Origin: a virus
Length of the DNA stretch: 30,197 nt
Direction: 5' to 3' (one strand)
Virus record (IMG/VR): IMGVR_UViG_3300042509_001125
Span: 1 to 30,197 of that record
Of this stretch, positions 16,337 to 29,784 are shown one piece after another (position 1 is the stretch's first letter; each line of letters starts with the position of its first letter). The notes under the pieces were generated by a model that ran no database searches, was not told the origin of the DNA, and saw nothing but the letters and a program-made list of their open reading frames with translations. Made by a program: the position numbers and the translations under genes.

Positions 16337-19300
16337 GTGGCGGACCGCTATTGGGTTGGTGGAACGGGTACTTGGAGCAGTACCAATACGGCTAACTGGT
16401 CTGCATCATCCGGCGGCCCCACAGGAGCATCAGTTCCAACGGCTGCGGATAACGTATTTTTCGATGCAGGTAGTGATTCTGGCGGTATCTTCACTGTTAC
16501 GATGGCAAACACCCCCCGTGTTTGCAACGACATCACAATCAGCGGTCTTGATTTTACGATGACACTAGCTGGCACAAGCATTGGCTTGACTATTAGTGGT
16601 TCATTATCTTTTCCAGCAACAAACTTAATAGTAAGCTATACAGGTACTACGACATTTGATGCTACGACTACAGGCAAAACAATTACGACTAACGGTGTGG
16701 CATTTGGCGGAAATGTTACGCTTAACGGTGTTGGTGGCGCGTGGACACTTGGCTCTGCGTTTAGCTGTGGTACTGACACATTAACAATAACGAGAGGAAC
16801 ATTTGATACTTCAGTAAGTAATTATGCGGTTACTGCTGCAAGAGTTCTTTGTTCAAGTCTTCTTACAAGATCAGTAATTTTAAATGGTTCAACTATAACC
16901 CTCAGTATTCAAGGACTTACTGTTTGGAATTTTTCAACTACTACGGGATTAACTTTTAATAGTGGAAGTTCTACTATTGTATGCACGGCAAATAACTTTA
17001 CATTTGAGGGAGGGGGGTTAATATACAACAACCTTTCTTTTACTAATACAAGTATTTTTAATTCTCCAAAAACAATTACCGGTTCCAATGTATTTAATGA
17101 CGTAACAATTTCTGGACCGTCTGCTGTTGGGGAAAATACCATAGAGTTTTCATCAAGCCAGATTATTAACGGAACCTTAACCATTAATGGTTCTCAAGGC
17201 AACCGTAGGTTACTTTTAATATCCAATGCAACAGGAACAGCCCGTACCTTAACTTGCGCAACTATTGCATCCATGACGGATGTTAGCTTCCGTGACATTA
17301 CGATAGCTGGCGCACACGGTACTTTGTCAGGCACTCGACTAGGTGATTGTGGTGGTAACAGCAATATTACGTTTGTAGCGGGGACAAATAAATATTGGAA
17401 CTTAGCTGCTGGGGGGAACTGGACTGCTACTGCATGGGCAACGGGGTCTTCTAGTGGATCACCAGCAACTACAAACCATCCACTACCACAAGACACGGCA
17501 ATTATTGAAAATACGGGTTTAAATACTGGAGCAACGATAACAATTAATGGGGCACAAAGCATTGGATCGTTAGATATGTCTGGACGAACTAATGCAATGA
17601 CGTTTACTAATGCTACTAATTTAAACGTATATTTTTATGGTAATTTTACCTTTGGTTCTGGCGTAACCCCAGCGGGATCTTCTACTTATAATTTTTCAAA
17701 TAGATCAACAAAGACACTTAATTCTGGTGGTAAAACATTTACGCAGGGCATAGCGATTGATGCTCCGAATGGTGGTATTCAATTACTCACCAATAACTTG
17801 ACGATTACTCCAACAACAACGCTTACTCGTGGAGAGCTTAATCTAAATAATTTAACGCTATCAACAGGTGTTTTTAGTTCAGGTAATAGCAACACCCGAT
17901 CAATTGCATTTGGCTCAACGGGCGGCATTACGTTAACAAGTACCTCTGTTGGGGCTACCGTACTGGCGATGGCAACCGCCACTAATTTCACATTTACCGG
18001 AACATCAAATATTAGTGCAGCAATGTCTGTTACAAGAACATTTAGCTTTGGGGGAACTGCGGGAGCAACAGCAAGCAATAGGCTTAATATCAACCTAACG
18101 TCAGGTTCGTCTGCCCCTACATTTATTGGGAGCTTCAGACAAATCAACTTCACCGGATCAACTTTTAACGCCGGTTCTCAAACTATTTCTTGTCATGGAT
18201 TTACATTAGCGTCTGGTGGTACGTATACATCCACTAGTTTCACGACGGTAGGCACAGGAACGCTTACACATACAGGAAAATCAATATTTACGCTTCTCAT
18301 CAACACAAGTGACATAACGACAACATTAGCTGATGCTGGTCAAAATGGGACTTTGACACTAACTAACGGAACGCTAGATTTAGCTGGCTTTACAATGACT
18401 TGTACAACCAGAGGTCAAACGGCAACTGGTACAAAAAATTTAACTTTTAATGGTGGGACATTAGTCATAAGTGGCGCAAACACGACCGCTTGGAATAACG
18501 CAGCACCTACAGGATTCACCACAACAGCAGGTACTGGCACTGGCACAATCAGTATGACATCCGCGAGTGCAAAAACATTTGTGGGCGGCGGATCAACATA
18601 CAACTGCACATTGAATCAAGGCGGCGCTGGAACCCTGACCATTACTGGCGCAAATACGTTTAACGATATTACTGAAACGGTACCCACCGCAAACCAGATC
18701 ACGTTCCCTGCTAGTATAACCACAACGGTTAATGCGTTTACATTGTCTGGATCGTCAGGCAACTTGGTTTCAATCCGCAGTTCTACTCCAGCCACGCGGT
18801 TCACACTGTCTAAGTCATCAGGCACGGTATCGGTTTCTTTCCTTGATATTCAAGACAGCAATGCTACTGGCGGTGCTACTTGGGAAGCGTTTACAAGCAA
18901 TGGTAACGTTAATAGCGGGAATAACCTCGGCTGGGTATTTGCGGGCGGCGCTATTCTTGTTTACATAACTGAATCGTCAATAGCAAGCGATTCAATAAGT
19001 ACGGTGCTTAGTAGATTTGGTGTTATAAGCGAATTAGCCACCGCAAGTGATTCAATAAGTACTGTACTAAGTAGAGTTGGTTCGGTAAGCGAAACAGCGA
19101 CAGCAAACGACTCTATCGCTTCAATACTTACTGCGGTGGGTGCTGTAAGCGAAACAGCTGCCGCAAGCGACTCTATCGCTTCAGTGCTTACTGCTATCGG
19201 AGCAGTAAGTGAGACGAGTACTATAAGTGAGACGACTAACAGCACCTTAGTGGGTGTTGGAAATATTGCAGAGACATCTACCATAGCCGATTCATCGGTA

Positions 19301-20968
19301 GGCAATGTAGTTGCTCCGGCCGCGTTGCTCGAATCGGCCACCATCAGTGACGCTAATGCTTCTATATTGACAGCAGTCGCCGCGGTCAGCGAGTCGTCCA
19401 CCTTGACTGATGCCACTACGTCTTCACTGGTTGCTGTAGGTCAGGCGAGCGAATCTGCAACAGTTAGTGATTCTGTTTCTGGAAACGCGGTGTTTCCAAA
19501 TGCTTTGTCAGAGTCTGCGACAGCTTCGGATTCAATTGTGGGCAATGCTACGCTTTTAGTTAGCTCCGATGAATCTTCTACGGTAAGTGATTCCCCGCAA
19601 TCTGTTCTGAGAAGAGTAGGTTCGGTATCAGAGTCTGCGGTTGTTTCTGATCAGGCTTCTTCTCAACTCACGGCGGTAGGCGTGGTATCGGAGCAGGTGT
19701 CAGGGGCAGATGCGGATACGGTTTCTTTGATCAGGGTGGGAAACATCCGAGAAGGGTTATTCTTCTACCAAGACACAGGCAGCCTGCCAACGGGCACGGC
19801 GTTCACAGGCTCCCCTGTTTTCAATAACACTTCCGCAGGCGGCGGATTGACGGTTGTGGCAAATGGCACAGGAACAGGGAGTTCTGGCGGGTTTAATGCG
19901 GGTAAAAACTATGTGCTGTTTACTGGCGCTAATACTCGTTCAATTAGAACAATTTCTTTGAATTTAGTTGACTGCCGATCAATCAGTTTTTCCCTTATAC
20001 GCGGTACTAGTAGCAATGGTGGGGAGACTCCAGACGCAGGAGAGAATATTGTTGTTGAATACAGCATAAATGGCGGAGCCGGTTATTCAACGATTACTAC
20101 TATTACTAACACAGCAGCGCCTACTACTTTCACCCGGCTTTCTTATAGTTTGCCGTTAGCGGCGCAGACATCCGCTACTATTATTAGATGGCGGCAAGTT
20201 ACAAGCACTGCTGGTACGTTTGACAATTACGGCATCCGCGATTTTTATTTTGGTGGGGTATTTGCCAGTGACTCAATAGCTTCACGATTAGTTAGGGTCG
20301 GTGCGGTCAGCGAGACAAGTACAGCGGTCGATTCAATAATCGCACGGCTAATCAGGGTAGGGTTAATCAGCGAGGCAAGCACTGCCAGTGATGCTGTTGT
20401 TACCGTGTTGCGTAGGATTGGCTTGATTTCTGAAACAAGCACGGCAAGCGATTCAATCGCTGCGGGGTTGCAAAGGGTTGGCGCGGTCAGCGAGACAAGT
20501 ACCGTGTCGGATTCCGCCGCCGCCGCGTTGCAGGGTTTGGGAGCCGTTTCTGAATCGGCCACGGTCAGCGATTCGGTTGCCTCGTTTGTTACCTTTTTGT
20601 GTACACTTATTGAGCAGGCGCAGGTGTCAGAAAGTGTGTCGGCGCAATTGACGGCGGTTGCAGCGATTCTTGAACAGGCCAGAGGGGCAGATCAGGTACT
20701 GGGGGCGCTCAGTTTTATGGCCCAAACGGCAGAAGGCGCGGCGATATTAGACCAAGCTTTGATTCGCTTTTATTGGGAATTAATAGAAGACAATCAGCTG
20801 CCTAACTGGCAGAATGCTTCAAATACGCAGACACCAAGCTGGACAGAGATTAACACATCGACAACACCGTCGTGGCAGAATGTTTCCAACAATCAAGCTA
20901 GTAGTTGGACAACAATTGACACCTCGGTGGACGGAAATTGGAATAACATAAATACTCGGCCCGAGTAG
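16337..20968 (+). CDS. Giant repeat adhesin / tail fibre, 1543 aa
   Basis: The gene starts with GTG, supported by AGGAG (16326-16330) 6 nt upstream and the typical opening ADRYWVGGTGTWSSTNTANW. Residues 1-870 are Thr/Ser/Asn/Gly-rich beta repeats, probably a right-handed beta-helix; a second Trp-rich opening (KYWNLAAGGNWTATAW) near 355 suggests two helix modules, and NSGNNLGWVF closes the region. Residues 879-1138 are thirteen exact 20-residue repeats, E-[ST]-x-T-x-S-D-S... ending V-G-x-V-S. A 167-residue beta domain (nt 19757-20257) interrupts the next repeat, then eight more repeats follow. The C-terminus has five Trp at 11-residue spacing. No signal peptide, so it is virion-borne rather than secreted. 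Role: receptor binding or surface adhesion. The beta-helix part is clearly AT-richer than the capsid genes. Confidence 0.85.
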   Translation: MADRYWVGGTGTWSSTNTANWSASSGGPTGASVPTAADNVFFDAGSDSGGIFTVTMANTPRVCNDITISGLDFTMTLAGTSIGLTISGSLSFPATNLIVSYTGTTTFDATTTGKTITTNGVAFGGNVTLNGVGGAWTLGSAFSCGTDTLTITRGTFDTSVSNYAVTAARVLCSSLLTRSVILNGSTITLSIQGLTVWNFSTTTGLTFNSGSSTIVCTANNFTFEGGGLIYNNLSFTNTSIFNSPKTITGSNVFNDVTISGPSAVGENTIEFSSSQIINGTLTINGSQGNRRLLLISNATGTARTLTCATIASMTDVSFRDITIAGAHGTLSGTRLGDCGGNSNITFVAGTNKYWNLAAGGNWTATAWATGSSSGSPATTNHPLPQDTAIIENTGLNTGATITINGAQSIGSLDMSGRTNAMTFTNATNLNVYFYGNFTFGSGVTPAGSSTYNFSNRSTKTLNSGGKTFTQGIAIDAPNGGIQLLTNNLTITPTTTLTRGELNLNNLTLSTGVFSSGNSNTRSIAFGSTGGITLTSTSVGATVLAMATATNFTFTGTSNISAAMSVTRTFSFGGTAGATASNRLNINLTSGSSAPTFIGSFRQINFTGSTFNAGSQTISCHGFTLASGGTYTSTSFTTVGTGTLTHTGKSIFTLLINTSDITTTLADAGQNGTLTLTNGTLDLAGFTMTCTTRGQTATGTKNLTFNGGTLVISGANTTAWNNAAPTGFTTTAGTGTGTISMTSASAKTFVGGGSTYNCTLNQGGAGTLTITGANTFNDITETVPTANQITFPASITTTVNAFTLSGSSGNLVSIRSSTPATRFTLSKSSGTVSVSFLDIQDSNATGGATWEAFTSNGNVNSGNNLGWVFAGGAILVYITESSIASDSISTVLSRFGVISELATASDSISTVLSRVGSVSETATANDSIASILTAVGAVSETAAASDSIASVLTAIGAVSETSTISETTNSTLVGVGNIAETSTIADSSVGNVVAPAALLESATISDANASILTAVAAVSESSTLTDATTSSLVAVGQASESATVSDSVSGNAVFPNALSESATASDSIVGNATLLVSSDESSTVSDSPQSVLRRVGSVSESAVVSDQASSQLTAVGVVSEQVSGADADTVSLIRVGNIREGLFFYQDTGSLPTGTAFTGSPVFNNTSAGGGLTVVANGTGTGSSGGFNAGKNYVLFTGANTRSIRTISLNLVDCRSISFSLIRGTSSNGGETPDAGENIVVEYSINGGAGYSTITTITNTAAPTTFTRLSYSLPLAAQTSATIIRWRQVTSTAGTFDNYGIRDFYFGGVFASDSIASRLVRVGAVSETSTAVDSIIARLIRVGLISEASTASDAVVTVLRRIGLISETSTASDSIAAGLQRVGAVSETSTVSDSAAAALQGLGAVSESATVSDSVASFVTFLCTLIEQAQVSESVSAQLTAVAAILEQARGADQVLGALSFMAQTAEGAAILDQALIRFYWELIEDNQLPNWQNASNTQTPSWTEINTSTTPSWQNVSNNQASSWTTIDTSVDGNWNNINTRPE
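18971..19750 (+). repeat. Thirteen tandem 60-bp (20-aa) repeats
   Basis: The units are exactly 60 bp, each encoding E-[STLQ]-x-x-x-x-D/E-x repeats such as ETAAASDSIASVLTAIGAVS. There is no indel between units. Some neighbours are near identical at DNA level (19091 and 19151 units); others have drifted, so the array is old with some recent copying. Confidence 0.9.
20258..20791 (+). repeat. Second array: half repeat plus eight 60-bp repeats
   Basis: It continues the first array after the 501-bp insert. The first unit lacks its first two residues, which stand before the insert (EG at 19751-19756). Eight full 20-residue units run from 20312 to 20791, the last three degenerate (EQAQ..., EQAR..., EGAA...). 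Confidence 0.85.
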
Positions 20969-20984: not shown

Positions 20985-22154
20985 ATGCCTTCTACCTTTT
21001 CTCCCAATCTTCGGATTGAGCTCATTCCCTCTGGAGATCAGACGGGTACGTGGGGGACCACGACGAATAATAACCTTGGAACGTTGATTGAAAGCGCTAT
21101 TTCCGGGTATGTGTCTGTTTCAATTACTTCGGCCGACCAAGCTCTTACCGCATCGGATGGTGTTGCGGATCAATCGCGGAACATGGTAATCAATCTGACT
21201 ACCACAACCACTGCGCCGTTTAATGTCTATGTTCCCCCAGCAGAAAAACTCTATGTCATTCGCAACTCGAGTGCTTACGCCGCGACTATCTATTGCTCCA
21301 CTAGTTTAAATAACACAATAGCGGCGGGCGCGGGGGTCACGGTTCCCGCTAATAGAACCACCTTTATTTTCACCGACGCTACGGATGTGGTGATTGCTGC
21401 CAACTTCTTCCCTGCGATGAATTTGGCTTCTGCGCTTTCGGTGGCCAATGGTGGTACGGGTGCGACTAGTTTGACGAATGGAGCGATTCTTAAAGGTTCG
21501 GGTACTTCGGCGGTTACTACCGCAACGGCGGGCACGGATTACTTAGCACCGCCTTCTGGCACTGCGATTGTCAAGGCAAACTCCGGCGGAGCATTAGCGA
21601 ATGCGGTTGCGGGTACCGATTACTTAGCGCCGCCTTCTGGCACTGCGATTGTCAAAGCAAACTCTGGTGGGGCATTGGCGAATGCAACGGCAGGCACAGA
21701 TTATTTGGCACCCCCATCAGGCACAGCACTTCTTAAAGCCAACTCGGGCGGGGCGTTAGCCAACGCTGTTGCGGGTACAGATTATGTCAGCCCAACGGGG
21801 TCAGAAACACTCACCAATAAGACGCTAGATGGCCCGATTATTAATAATGGATATACGGAGGAGGTATTTGCGGTTACTGGTACCACGCCTGCGCTGTCTC
21901 CTACTAACGGGTCAATTCAGACATGGACGTTGTCAGGAAACTCTACTCCGACTGCGGGTACGTGGGCATCGGGCCAATCTATCCTTTTGATGATCGATGA
22001 TGGCACGGCATATACAGTGACATGGTCGTCGCTTTCAGTTACATGGAAAACGGGAGGAGGCACTGCGCCTACGCTACTGACTAGCGGATACACGCCAATT
22101 GTGTTATGGAAGGTAGATAGCACTATTTATGGTGCTCAAGTGGGGAATGCATAA
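20985..22154 (+). CDS. Tail fibre protein with 27-residue repeats
   Basis: 389 residues. The N-terminus FSPNLRIELIPSGDQTGTWG with TTTNNNLGTLIESAISGY is a typical virion-attachment module of aquatic phage fibres. A beta domain follows, then SVANGGTGATSLTNGAILKG and three 27-residue repeats (AGTDYLAPPSGTAIVKANSG plus GALANAV), nt 21528-21770, a plausible trimeric shaft. GSETLTNKTLDGPIIN leads to a ~100-residue C-terminal beta domain, the probable tip. It follows the adhesin after 16 nt with GAGGA before its ATG. Role: host recognition. Confidence 0.85.
   Translation: MPSTFSPNLRIELIPSGDQTGTWGTTTNNNLGTLIESAISGYVSVSITSADQALTASDGVADQSRNMVINLTTTTTAPFNVYVPPAEKLYVIRNSSAYAATIYCSTSLNNTIAAGAGVTVPANRTTFIFTDATDVVIAANFFPAMNLASALSVANGGTGATSLTNGAILKGSGTSAVTTATAGTDYLAPPSGTAIVKANSGGALANAVAGTDYLAPPSGTAIVKANSGGALANATAGTDYLAPPSGTALLKANSGGALANAVAGTDYVSPTGSETLTNKTLDGPIINNGYTEEVFAVTGTTPALSPTNGSIQTWTLSGNSTPTAGTWASGQSILLMIDDGTAYTVTWSSLSVTWKTGGGTAPTLLTSGYTPIVLWKVDSTIYGAQVGNA
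21528..21770 (+). repeat. Three tandem 81-bp repeats in tail fibre
   Basis: Units at 21528, 21609 and 21690, each 81 bp with no indel, plus a partial fourth (from 21771). Units 1 and 2 share a fully identical stretch of more than 20 bp around the codons for PPSGTAIV; unit 3 has diverged at synonymous sites. Confidence 0.9.
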
Positions 22155-23931: not shown

Positions 23932-25869
23932 ATGCCGCTCCAAAAGCTCCAATTTCGCCCGGGCATAAACAATGAGATAACCACGCTCGCTGGTAAAGGG
24001 GGCTGGTTTGATGGCGATAATATTCGTTTCCGCGCAGGCTACCCAGAGAAGATTGGAGGGTGGGCCGCGCTTACCTATACGCAATTCTTGGGCGTGGCAC
24101 GTTCTCTATGGAACTGGGTAACGCTGAAAGACTTCAACCTATTGGGCATAGGCACGAACCTAAAGTTCTATATCGAAAACGGCGGAACCTATAACGACAT
24201 TACGCCTATTCGTTCCACCACGCCTGCGGGAGCGGTTACTTTTGCTGCGGTAACGGTAGCACCTTTTTCCTCTACGATTACGGTGACAGATGCAGGCCAT
24301 GGCTGTAACACAGGGGACTTTGTTACCTTTAGCGGCGTAGATGCATCAGGCCTTGGCGGCAATATTACTGAAGCCATTTTGGAGCAGGAATATCAGGTCA
24401 CGGTAACCAACAGTAGCACCTACACTATCCAAGCCCGTGCCGTTTCCCCTGTGAGTTCCCCCGGGGCGGCAGTGTTATCCAATGCTTCTGATAGCGGCAA
24501 CGGCGGCGCATCGGTGGTTGCCGCCTACCAAATAAATACGGGATTATCTATTTACAGCGTAGGTACCGGTTGGGGTGCGGGTCCATGGAGCCGCGGCGGC
24601 TGGGGCTCGGGGTACACATCAGGAATCGGGGAACAACTTCGACTGTGGAGCCAAAAGAACTACGGAGAGGACTTGTTGTTCTCGCCTAGATACGGAGCGC
24701 TGTATGTTTGGCAGCCGGGCTCTGGTACCACTCCTGCTGTGGGCACTCGCGGAACATTGGTATCTGGCACAGACGTTCCTTCTGAGATTGGTCAGTTCCT
24801 TATCTCAGATGCTACACGTATTAGCATTGCCTTGGGTTCAAGCGATTACGGTGCATACGGCACAGCGGATTTTGATCCGATGTTGGTTCGGTGGAGTGCG
24901 CAGGAAGATTATCTAGATTGGACACCATCCGCTACTAATCAAGCAGGCAGCTTCCGCTTGTCTTCGGGGTCAGAGATTATTGGCGGGGTACAGACTCGTC
25001 AGGAAATCTTGATTTGGACGGATGCGGCTATTTATTCGATGCAGTATCTTGGGCCACCATTTGTGTGGGGCTTTAATATCCTCGCAGACAATATTTCGAT
25101 CATCAGCCCTAATGCAATGATCACCGCATCAGGCGCAACATTCTGGATGGGCGTAGACAAGTTCTACGTGTATTCAGGCCGGGTAGAGACCTTGCCTTGC
25201 TCTGTCAGGAAGTACGTGTTTTCTGATATCAATATAGATCAATCCTTCCAATCCTTTGCGGGCACGAATGAGGGGTTCTCGGAGATTTGGTGGTTCTATT
25301 GTTCTGCTAATTCAAACGTCATTGATCGCTATGTGATCTACAACTATTTGGATCAGGCATGGTACTTTGGGGAAATGGGTCGGACGGCATGGCTTGATTC
25401 GCCGTTGCGAAACCATCCTATGGCTGCGACCACGGGCGACTTGATTGTGTACCACGAAGCTGCTGTTGACGATGGTACAACCAACCCGCCTAGCCCAATT
25501 ACTGCGTATATCCAATCGTCTGACTTTGATATAGGCGAAGGCAATAATTATGGCTTTGTATGGCGAATGATCCCTGATGTGACGTTTAATGGATCGACGA
25601 CCGCGAACCCTTCTCATCCTGAGGTGACGTTTACCTTGCGGCCAAGAAGGAATCCGGGTTCTGCGTATACGGTAAACAATAGCCCTGAAGTTGCTTCGAC
25701 ACAAAGTTATCAGTCGCAGCAGTACTACACTGTTCAGGAGTTCACAGAGAGTGTGTACACGCGAGCGCGTGGACGACAGATGGCATTAAAGATTGAGTCT
25801 AGTACGTTGGGTACGCAGTGGCAATTAGGTGTGCCGCGTATGGATATTCGTTCAGATGGCAGGCGTTGA
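23932..25869 (+). CDS. Tail nozzle / DNA stabilisation-type protein (P22 gp10 / T7 gp12-like)
   Basis: 645 residues. The N-terminus QFRPGINNEITTLAGKGGWF with DGDNIRFRAGYPEKIGGW is the hallmark of a large podoviral nozzle/stabilisation family. An inserted Ig-like beta domain (about 95-190: FSSTITVTDAGHGCNTGDFV) is followed by propeller-like strands (WSAQEDYLDWTP, then EILIWTDAAIYSMQYLGPP) and a C-terminal beta domain. The protein would form the short tail tube below the adaptors. Its stop overlaps the next ATG (TGATG). Confidence 0.8.
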   Translation: MPLQKLQFRPGINNEITTLAGKGGWFDGDNIRFRAGYPEKIGGWAALTYTQFLGVARSLWNWVTLKDFNLLGIGTNLKFYIENGGTYNDITPIRSTTPAGAVTFAAVTVAPFSSTITVTDAGHGCNTGDFVTFSGVDASGLGGNITEAILEQEYQVTVTNSSTYTIQARAVSPVSSPGAAVLSNASDSGNGGASVVAAYQINTGLSIYSVGTGWGAGPWSRGGWGSGYTSGIGEQLRLWSQKNYGEDLLFSPRYGALYVWQPGSGTTPAVGTRGTLVSGTDVPSEIGQFLISDATRISIALGSSDYGAYGTADFDPMLVRWSAQEDYLDWTPSATNQAGSFRLSSGSEIIGGVQTRQEILIWTDAAIYSMQYLGPPFVWGFNILADNISIISPNAMITASGATFWMGVDKFYVYSGRVETLPCSVRKYVFSDINIDQSFQSFAGTNEGFSEIWWFYCSANSNVIDRYVIYNYLDQAWYFGEMGRTAWLDSPLRNHPMAATTGDLIVYHEAAVDDGTTNPPSPITAYIQSSDFDIGEGNNYGFVWRMIPDVTFNGSTTANPSHPEVTFTLRPRRNPGSAYTVNNSPEVASTQSYQSQQYYTVQEFTESVYTRARGRQMALKIESSTLGTQWQLGVPRMDIRSDGRR

Positions 25870-27300: not shown

Positions 27301-29784
27301 ATGGCTATTAACGATCAAGGCATCATGGCCCTTCCCACGGAGCAAGCCGCAGTCCCTGAGATCAGTCTTCAGGACTCCTATGGCGCGATGCGCGAGGCCC
27401 TGCAAGAGGCGCGTCCTGACGCGGATATGGAACTGCAAGAGGCGCTGGCCGAGATCAAGTCTGAACTCAAGGATGTCACCGATCAGCAACTAGAAGACCT
27501 GATTGCGGCTATTCAGTCTCTGTACGACAACCCTGAAACCTATGCCCAAGAAGTTGCTCAATTGGCGGCCGATGGGGAGATTGAGGCCGGGGACTTGCCA
27601 GAAGCGTACGACGAAGAGTTCCTAGCTGCCGTGTTGATGGTGTTGATTGATGAGCAACGTTCTCGTCAGTCGGCGGGTATGCCTCCTGAAATGGCAACCA
27701 TGATGCCTCCACAGCAGTTTGCTCGAGGTGGTATTGCAGAGGCGGCAAGAATGCTGGCAAGCAAGGGTCGCCGTGGCGATACCATGCTGGCGCATATCAC
27801 GCCTCGCGAAGCGCGGTTACTGAAGGCGCGTGGCGGCTCGGGGACCATTAATCCGCAGACAGGCTTGCCTGAGTTTTTCCTTAAAAAGATTTTTAAGGCG
27901 GTCCAGAACACGTTTAAGCGAGTAGTCAATGCGGTTAAAACGGTGCTTAAAAGCCCAGTTGGCAGAGTCCTTGGCACCATTGCGTTGGGCATGGTCCTCG
28001 GACCTGCTGTCATGACCATGTTTCCTTCAATGGCGGCGGTGGGAGGAGGACTCACTGCCATGGGCTCCGCAGTTACAGGCGCGTTAGCCTCGGGCACCGT
28101 AGCTGCTCTTTCGGGCGGGGACCTTAAATCCGTTTTGACTTCTGCCGCAGTGGGCTTCTTGGGTGCTCCCGGCGGTCCTGTGGGCAATTTCGTGGGTAAA
28201 TACACTGCCCAAGTAGGTGTGACCAATGCTGCTGCGAATGCTGCGCTTACCGGTGCTATTGTTGGCACTGGCGCAGGCTTAGTATCTGGTCAGAATTTAA
28301 AGGAGTCGTTGAAGAGTGGCTTGACAGAGGGGGTTATTTCAGGCGGCATGGCTTACTTTAGCGGTGCACCGAAGGTGGATGTAGACAATGCGGCAGCTAC
28401 TGCGGCCAGAGATGCGGTGGACACGCAGACATATGTGGATGAGTTTGGAGGCCTCACCAAGCCCGGTAACAAAGGGACAGCGGGTCAAGCTGCGAAATAC
28501 CAGAATATGGATGACGCGATAATGGGCCAAACCCTCGAAAGAGGGAAACAGTATGTTGCCCCTGATGGAAACATAACTACCTTTGTGGGCATGGATAAAG
28601 CTACGGGGGAAAATATTTTTGAAGGTGGCGTTGGCGGGCAGTACAAAAGAAATGCAATTGATATTGTGTCTGAAAGACCACCAGCACAGGCTCCAGTTGC
28701 TGCGGGACCTTCTACCTACAAAGGGACAGAAATACCCACCGATATATTTGCGCCAAAGACCAAAGCTGAGACTTACTTCTCGGGAGCACCAAACCTCCCT
28801 GCTTTAAGTGGAAGAGGAGTGCCGCAGGTTACCCCCGATACTTATTTTCCGGGACCCGTTCAACCACCTAATTTAAGTGGAAGAGGAGCACCTCAAGTTA
28901 CTCCCGATAGTTATTTTTCGGGGCAGGTTCAACCGCCTAATTTAAGTGGAACAGTGGAAGGAGGTGATTTTGTCTCTTCTCCTGCTGTCTCGTCCGCTCC
29001 TTCGCCATACAGGGTCCCTGAGGTAGGAGCCTCACTCAAAAAAGCTATAACACCGGGGACCATGATGGAAGGTTTGGGCGAGTTGTTTATGCCCGGACCT
29101 TCTTCAGCGCAGTACAAAGAAATGATTGATGATGTTTTGGCAAAAAACCCTCGGTTTACGCCAGATCAAGCTGCTGACTATTTAAATAAAACCGGGGCAG
29201 TTCCGGGCATGTTGCGCACCTACGGTCCCGGTGTTGCAGCGGGCATTGGGGCATTAGGTTTATTCGGTGGATTTACGCCAAAAACCCCGCCACAAAGCGA
29301 GTTTGCTGGACAAATGCGCCAGCCTATAGACCTATCTGGCGACCCCAGCAAGTACTATATTCAAGGTCTTCCGGGAGTCCAATACGGCCCTCGAGGCGAG
29401 ATTATTGGTTCCTCCCCAATGGGGCTTCCAGATGTTTCGCAAAATGTTTTGGTGGCAGGACGAAGCTATCTTCCGCCAATGAACAACCCAATGATGTACC
29501 GTTCCCCAATGTTCATGAACCAAGGCGGCTCCATTAGTTCCGTGCCCCCTAGAGGTTCGGCGGGTATTGCTAGTTTAGCAGGAGGCGGATATCCTAGACG
29601 TATCGGACAGATTGAAGGACCGGGGACCGAGACCTCCGATGATATCCCCGCCATGCTTTCAGACGGTGAGTTTGTCATGACCGCACGTGCAGTGCGAGGA
29701 ATGGGCAACGGTAGCCGTCGAAAAGGGGCGAAAAAGATGTATGCGCTCATGCATCAGCTAGAACGTAACGCGGCACGAGGATAA
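27301..29784 (+). CDS. Internal/ejection-type virion protein with Gly-Gly motifs
   Basis: 827 residues. The helical N-terminus (about 1-115) is followed by FARGGIAEAARMLASKGRRG and AHITPREARLLKARGG. A Lys-rich amphipathic stretch (FFLKKIFKAVQNTFKRVVNA) precedes a glycine-zipper-like hydrophobic region (about 222-275) and two further apolar segments near 317 and 641. Three ~23-residue Pro-rich repeats (YF-x-G...NLSGRG-x-PQVTPD) lie at nt 28774-28950. The C-terminus carries FMNQGGSI, IEGPGTETSDDIPAMLSDGE and FVMTARAVRGMG, a motif found in many phage virion proteins. Membrane-seeking segments in a protein with no signal peptide suggest an ejected protein that forms part of a DNA channel. An alternative is a tail-tip protein. 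Confidence 0.65.
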   Translation: MAINDQGIMALPTEQAAVPEISLQDSYGAMREALQEARPDADMELQEALAEIKSELKDVTDQQLEDLIAAIQSLYDNPETYAQEVAQLAADGEIEAGDLPEAYDEEFLAAVLMVLIDEQRSRQSAGMPPEMATMMPPQQFARGGIAEAARMLASKGRRGDTMLAHITPREARLLKARGGSGTINPQTGLPEFFLKKIFKAVQNTFKRVVNAVKTVLKSPVGRVLGTIALGMVLGPAVMTMFPSMAAVGGGLTAMGSAVTGALASGTVAALSGGDLKSVLTSAAVGFLGAPGGPVGNFVGKYTAQVGVTNAAANAALTGAIVGTGAGLVSGQNLKESLKSGLTEGVISGGMAYFSGAPKVDVDNAAATAARDAVDTQTYVDEFGGLTKPGNKGTAGQAAKYQNMDDAIMGQTLERGKQYVAPDGNITTFVGMDKATGENIFEGGVGGQYKRNAIDIVSERPPAQAPVAAGPSTYKGTEIPTDIFAPKTKAETYFSGAPNLPALSGRGVPQVTPDTYFPGPVQPPNLSGRGAPQVTPDSYFSGQVQPPNLSGTVEGGDFVSSPAVSSAPSPYRVPEVGASLKKAITPGTMMEGLGELFMPGPSSAQYKEMIDDVLAKNPRFTPDQAADYLNKTGAVPGMLRTYGPGVAAGIGALGLFGGFTPKTPPQSEFAGQMRQPIDLSGDPSKYYIQGLPGVQYGPRGEIIGSSPMGLPDVSQNVLVAGRSYLPPMNNPMMYRSPMFMNQGGSISSVPPRGSAGIASLAGGGYPRRIGQIEGPGTETSDDIPAMLSDGEFVMTARAVRGMGNGSRRKGAKKMYALMHQLERNAARG
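28774..28950 (+). repeat. Three 69-bp repeats, Pro/Gly-rich
   Basis: Units start at 28774 and 28843, with a partial third at 28912. Each encodes YF-[SP]-G-x-x-x-x-P-x-LSGRG-x-PQVTPD-[TS]. They form a flexible linker inside the internal-type protein. Confidence 0.85.

Follow-up and report, generated by a model that had tools for sequence, protein, structure and literature searches.

Results

Organization of the locus

The window, that is, the whole stretch of 30,197 nucleotides that was analysed (positions 1 to 30,197 of IMG/VR record IMGVR_UViG_3300042509_001125), carries in this order genes for an SLT-containing internal protein, the portal, the capsid, an SU10-type adaptor (PF24175, E 9e-24), the repeat protein studied here, a fibre-like protein, a tail-assembly chaperone and nozzle/stabilisation-like proteins. 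It belongs to the genome of a podovirus-like phage, and the repeat gene lies within the tail module, near a tail-fibre assembly chaperone (PF16778). The capsid protein is closest to those of the cultured pelagiphage HTVC023P (76%) and DSL-LC04 (73%). The N-terminal module of the repeat protein is closest to Limnohabitans and Methylophilaceae phages, a similarity that hints at a freshwater betaproteobacterial host. Further downstream, the ORF at 27301-29784 contains a 69-bp tandem repeat (2.2 copies, 28803-28951).

The repeat gene is a plus-strand ORF (16337-20968) of 1543 codons with a GTG start; its relatives read MADRYW at this point. The parts of this ORF described below lie on the same strand. 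The translation begins with VADRYWVGGTGTWSSTNTANWS and opens on a beta-rich N-terminal module (residues 1-878, 16337-18970), which is followed by a first block of 13 units of 20 residues each (residues 879-1138, 18971-19750). The fourteenth unit is split: its first two residues, E-G (residues 1139-1140, 19751-19756), are separated by a 167-residue insert (residues 1141-1307, 19757-20257) from its other 18 residues, VFASDSIAS... (residues 1308-1325, 20258-20311). A second block of seven clear 20-residue units (residues 1326-1465, 20312-20731) leads to a degenerate transition unit, EGAAILDQALIRFYWELIED (residues 1466-1485, 20732-20791), in which WELIDD is conserved in relatives. The protein ends with a Trp tail (20774-20965).

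The next gene (20985-22154, plus strand) encodes a fibre-like protein with the conserved N-terminus MPSTFSPNLRIELIPSGDQTGTWGTTTNNNL, which we propose as the partner of the repeat protein. A gene with this TWG N-terminus directly follows the repeat gene in 57 of the 72 relatives whose contigs leave room for it, at a median distance of 9 nt, and the homologue in Planktothrix phage Pag-Yong1 is annotated as a tail spike. Within the window, this fibre gene itself contains an 81-bp tandem repeat (3.2 copies, 21528-21784) encoding AGTDYLAPPSGTAIVKANSGGALANAV units.

An old 20-residue repeat under length constraint

In order to evaluate the periodicity of the array, its identity autocorrelation was compared with that of shuffled sequences. 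At lag 20 it reached 0.46 in the first block and 0.44 in the second, and lesser peaks appeared at lags 40 and 60, while the best value of 200 shuffles over all lags was 0.20-0.21. The periodicity is thus far beyond chance. The initial annotation had described 22 exact 20-residue repeats. Thirteen units, the split unit and seven clear units were indeed found, with zero indels between them, but the last unit is degenerate and "exact" applies to length only. On its own, the transition unit scores 0.3 bits, and it was recognized solely through its homology to ESATASDAIARRLLWELIDD in contig L006.

The mean pairwise identity of the window units is 37% at the amino acid level and 43% at the nucleotide level, from which we conclude that the array is old; Tandem Repeats Finder (TRF) detected two copies and no more. 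Given the low identity at the DNA level, recent slippage was rejected as an explanation for the bulk of the array. The length of the array is under constraint.

About 1000 units of the family give the consensus E-T-A-T-[GA]-[ST]-D-[SA]-[VI]-S-A-x-x-x-[FY]-x-x-x-[VI]-S, in which E1 (97%) and D7 (92%) are nearly invariant and E1, D7, F15/Y15 and V19/I19 are all conserved in kind at about 0.9 or more. Position 5 is either G (0.47) or A (0.38). In the first half of the unit, odd positions are small, acidic or hydrophobic and even positions are mostly Ser or Thr, an alternation that, as far as residue pattern can tell, is that of a beta strand. An antifreeze-like TxT face formed by the Thr and Ser residues of the even positions was considered and dropped, as no evidence supported it.

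A phage family of variable length and exchangeable ends

Neither Pfam nor NCBIfam contains a family for the 20-residue repeat, in agreement with the initial annotation, which could not assign it to any named family. Matches of the repeat to the TPR_15, CTD and F420 profiles were weak and scattered, and were rejected. In PHROGs, the window protein itself had no match; its short relatives weakly matched phrog_12240 (unknown; best E 4e-6, 8 of 23 members), and single short relatives gave weak matches to phrog_29955 (appendage) and phrog_7809 (tail fiber protein).

When IMG/VR was searched, the C-terminal query retrieved 375 viral contigs or stretches, and more than 500 contigs were found to encode the 20-residue repeat. 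Among 84,980 bacterial and archaeal cell genomes, the repeat query recovered two contigs only, both from metagenome-assembled genomes (MAGs) and possibly viral, and the C-terminal query recovered none. The repeat is practically phage-only. One contig from an Armatimonadetes MAG (L185, CAIRTT010000188.1) carries a single ETAT-repeat gene with a six-Trp tail; it may be a contig of viral origin in a bacterial bin. A tblastn search of cultured phages with the short relatives found no homologous array, and matches to Paenibacillus tape-measure proteins (E 0.5) were attributed to chance. With the window protein, tblastn matches in phages were confined to the insert and to the N-terminal module, and none fell on a proven fibre protein.

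The spacing of the units proved nearly invariant. Over 150 distinct arrays, 1519 of 1562 steps between units measured 20 residues; the 43 others measured 21 (41 steps), 22 (one) or 23 (one), so that changes of repeat length are rare; a few inserted stretches also occur. The number of units, counted in 76 arrays, ranges from 3 to 25. A near-fixed pitch combined with a variable unit number is what would be expected of a spacer whose structural pitch is fixed and whose length can be adjusted. The 21-residue units recur in L013, L035, L067 and L087, where a PGSTFNPSL-type second half defines a distinct unit subtype.

Most relatives are short (250-470 residues) and have neither the insert nor the 878-residue N-terminal module; as the initial annotation had suggested looking for, their arrays run uninterrupted. 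Instead of the RYWVGGTGTW module, most of them open with an aromatic triad (GGWGSGTWGQAGWG or FGFTPYAQAPYA), so that three variants of the N-terminus occur in the family: a WG triad, an FG triad or the RYWVGG module. In L068 and L080, an 18-residue WG triad is inserted between units. The repeat is also fused to a beta-propeller (SBBP) in L064 and to an Lcl_C domain in L042. These two proteins (L064 2645-4663, L042 4370-5221) are second proteins of their own genomes, with the N-terminus MP[IV]IQRLAAG.ARGFGFG, and the ETAT repeat serves in them as a linker.

The N-terminal module of the window protein has no match in Pfam. Its relatives occur in Limnohabitans phage DC31 (36.5% identity over 60%) and in Methylophilaceae phage P19250A. 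The DC31 homologue lies on the minus strand (L102 2603-4120), in a region for which the record lists no more than small hypothetical genes, some of them on the opposite strand; it is probably misannotated. In L020 (7116-9056), the RYWVGG module seems to be a separate 647-residue protein near a short repeat protein.

HTVC023P gp68 and DSL-LC04 WJZ48131 (annotated as hypothetical) occupy the same slot before the TWG fibre gene, and both combine short beta-type repeats with an 11-spaced C-terminal Trp repeat. They differ from the window protein by a 22-residue VTG(V/I/S) repeat in place of the 20-residue ETATxxD unit, and they have neither the Reelin-type domain described below nor the RYWVGG module.

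The insert is related to Reelin subrepeat B

The insert matched the Pfam profile Reelin_subrepeat-B (PF21471) with an E value of 4.8e-17 and 62.4 bits against a cut-off of 27, over positions 12-127 of the 127 of the model. When compared by sequence with solved structures, the best matches were the Reelin crystal chains 2e26 and 3a7q (E 6e-13). Reelin 3a7q was also the top Foldseek match (probability 1.0 but E 0.04, obtained with a low-confidence model). From these profile and sequence matches, the insert is identified as a beta-sandwich domain of the Reelin subrepeat-B type (PF21471; structures 2e26, 3a7q and 2ddu), with a predicted jelly-roll fold. In Reelin, the subrepeats are jelly-rolls resembling carbohydrate-binding modules, which bind Ca2+ on their convex face (PMC4882317). 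The phage domain differs from Reelin in that it is a single copy set inside a phage stalk repeat, without subrepeat A or an EGF module: a Pfam search of the ORF showed one B-type domain only, and the A-EGF-B order of a Reelin repeat is absent.

The domain was found in five independent contigs or contig groups (the window, L009, L089, L095 and L096-L098), and the inserts of L095 and L096 also exceed the PF21471 cut-off. The complete inserts measure 167, 168, 168 and 170 residues, and both of their junctions fall at one position of the unit. E-G precedes the insert in the window as in L089, L095 and L096-L098, and GGV or GGA followed by A-A/S-D (G-V-x-A-x-D or close) comes after it. Since L009 ends at the contig edge, only its second junction is visible. 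The units before and after a complete insert number 13/9, 9/6, 8/5 and 6/9, the second figure including the split unit and the transition unit.

The initial annotation had placed the insert at 19757-20257, between positions 2 and 3 of the fourteenth unit, which translation confirmed, and had stressed that the repeat phase was preserved. The junctions are identical in relatives with a complete insert, and no displaced boundary was found among them. However, the preserved phase is largely a matter of definition: the inserts of relatives are of 168 or 170 residues, and the register follows from the way in which the ends are defined and carries little information. It is the conserved junction that is informative. 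L095 combines the Reelin-type domain with a short N-terminus, and therefore the modules combine freely.

A Reelin subrepeat-B domain (E 9e-13) was also detected in Synechococcus phage S-RIM8 (L101 6001-6342, record positions 64227-64568), within a giant virion structural protein (CDS 48783-67970). No paper on a Reelin domain in the tail fibre of a phage came up in a literature search.

Predicted fold of the stalk

The repeats were examined for disorder with AlphaFold2 monomers of a window segment and of a short relative. Both models showed two strands per unit, mostly of 6-8 residues, in a 20-residue rhythm, with a mean pLDDT of 43-45. The residue alternation and the predicted secondary structure thus concur on beta strands, in a model of low confidence. 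When this poor model was compared with BFVD by Foldseek, no match below 0.001 was obtained. Matches to designed helical repeats of the PDB (E 0.1-0.3) were dismissed as composition effects.

Adenovirus-type triple beta-spiral shafts and pentapeptide-repeat solenoids are long thin structures built from short strict beta repeats. The window array resembles both in its short strict repeats, and the signatures of both folds were sought. Among about 1000 units, no turn position was dominated by Gly or Pro, as the inter-strand turn of a triple beta-spiral would require. Likewise, the pentapeptide signature (period 5, central Leu or Phe, A(D/N)LXX) was not found: the autocorrelation has no peak at 5, 10 or 15, and the unit profile differs.

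As regards the fold of the stalk alone, the array could be no trimeric shaft but a rigid ruler in the form of a monomeric two-stranded beta-solenoid. The two strands per unit and the 20-residue periodicity of the monomer models would agree with such a solenoid, as would the hydrophobic or small residues at odd positions of the unit. However, the conserved E1 and D7 share the alternating face with these hydrophobic residues and are easier to place at subunit interfaces, the pLDDT values are low, and most phage shafts are trimers. We consider the monomeric solenoid less likely than not.

The Trp tail and the aromatic triads

The C-terminal tail contains six Trp residues exactly 11 apart (1480, 1491, 1502, 1513, 1524 and 1535) in a W-x-x-[IV]-x7 pattern, WELIDD opening the run after the last unit. 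Among 115 distinct complete tails, 113 contain three (n=20), four (n=47) or six (n=46) Trp residues, and none contains five or more than six. The two remaining tails, with two Trp each, are that of L131, whose ORF looks frameshifted, and an unrelated domain. The gap at five Trp persists after clustering of the tails at 60% identity.

Nearly all short relatives carry at their N-terminus aromatic triads (WGxxxWGxxxWG or FGxxxFAxxxFA) spaced exactly 5,5, which are repeated up to three times in L050 and four times in DSL-LC04 WJZ48131. Akin to these N-termini, a WGxGxWGxGxWG-type triad occurs in the phrog_3287 nozzle/stabilisation-like proteins of the window, L014, L016, L020, L030, L057, L087, L092 and L093. 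In the window this triad, WGAGPWSRGGWG (24571-24606, plus strand), lies inside the protein encoded at 23932-25869.

The nozzle of phage SU10 offers a precedent: in its "fiber dock loop", Trp 839, 847 and 857 form a pseudo-threefold star, each Trp touching one subunit of a trimeric short fibre (PMC9509320). SU10, a Kuravirus, has the adaptor family in common with the window, and the Trp triplets of the nozzle-like protein and of the repeat family recall its three-Trp dock. It differs in that its long fibres, which include a coiled coil, are attached through their N-terminus, and in that its Trp residues are spaced by 8 and 10. No sequence homology was shown between the repeat-protein system and SU10 gp12, gp13, gp16 or gp17. 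By this analogy, fibres may dock at the Trp tail and at the aromatic triads.

Docking might even be the main task of the protein, which would then hold trimeric fibres and not touch the host; the triads and the Trp tail would be docks that the array spaces, and the window protein would have swapped its N-terminal dock for the covalently fused RYWVGG module. The three-Trp star of SU10 argues for this, together with the strict 5,5 spacing of the triads at the N-termini of the short relatives and their presence inside the nozzle-like protein, the exact 11-residue spacing of the Trp residues with the avoidance of five, and the fibre gene directly downstream in most relatives. Against it, the four-Trp tails (47/115) fit poorly with simple triads, the Trp spacing is unlike that of SU10, the downstream partner is putative, the comparison with SU10 gp17 showed no homology, and the Reelin-type domain is left unexplained. 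We consider it rather doubtful that docking is the main task. A wider form, in which the protein would be a modular docking arm of aquatic podoviruses, seems unlikely: each Trp set would hold a trimeric fibre, the repeats would space the triads and the Trp tail, the repeat number would set the spacing and the dock number the fibres borne, and lectin-like domains of the Reelin type would be spliced in as a second binding function.

Discussion

We conclude, with a probability of about two in three, that the gene product is a tail-fibre component of the virion in a podovirus-like phage, made of an adjustable beta stalk, a spliced Reelin-type adhesion domain, an exchangeable N-terminus and a Trp-tail link. 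The 20-residue units would form a beta-structured stalk, whose length would shift as whole units are gained or lost. Into this stalk, the Reelin subrepeat-B-like jelly-roll would have been spliced as an independent domain, most likely displayed sideways and binding a carbohydrate or a receptor. The 878-residue beta-rich module would be a second, exchangeable module, and the Trp tail a constant end, probably connecting the stalk with a further part of the tail, for which the fibre encoded directly downstream is a plausible candidate. The repeat, the identity of the insert, the spread of the family, the swapping of modules and the gene context were established in this analysis; we infer the virion location, the oligomeric state, the adhesion function and the docking role of the Trp tail.

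A fibre with a side-mounted head had already been proposed in the initial annotation, as a regular stalk carrying a beta domain. The near-invariant unit length over 150 arrays, the Reelin jelly-roll recognized by sequence and the position in a tail-fibre module support it in part, and of the readings considered, a stalk bearing a beta domain on its side has the best support; that the head is the main receptor-binding part we can only infer. Since only a small minority of the repeat-protein relatives carry the Reelin-type domain, the core role does not depend on it. The initial annotation did not mention the 11-residue Trp repeat at the C-terminus, the 878-residue module at the N-terminus or the membership of the repeat in a large phage family.

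Two further observations count against the tail-fibre reading. Fibre proteins usually keep a constant N-terminus, whereas in the window family it is the C-terminus that is constant. In addition, the low AlphaFold confidence is compatible with disorder or with a fold adopted only in a multimer. The array could then be a flexible, largely disordered linker rich in Thr, Ser and Ala, whose period would reflect duplication only, in keeping with its low-complexity composition and low pLDDT. However, the units have diverged to about 37% identity while their length and E1, D7, F15/Y15 and V19/I19 were kept, which points to a structural constraint and makes a disordered linker improbable. Most improbable is a role outside the tail, such as head decoration or a phage-encoded secreted adhesin: in the inspected relatives the gene lies between the adaptor-side and the nozzle genes, and genes for a fibre and for a tail-fibre assembly chaperone are close by.

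A 20-residue repeat practically confined to phages, which neither Pfam nor NCBIfam lists, is defined here from hundreds of aquatic viral contigs. The array gives an example of stalks taking up whole domains while the repeat remains undisturbed. The Reelin-type domain, present in this probable phage fibre as well as in a giant cyanophage virion protein, is a concrete candidate for the recognition of hosts by uncultured aquatic phages. Finally, the strictly spaced Trp tail, together with the aromatic triads, constitutes a testable rule for possible fibre attachment in the abundant phages of the HTVC023P type.
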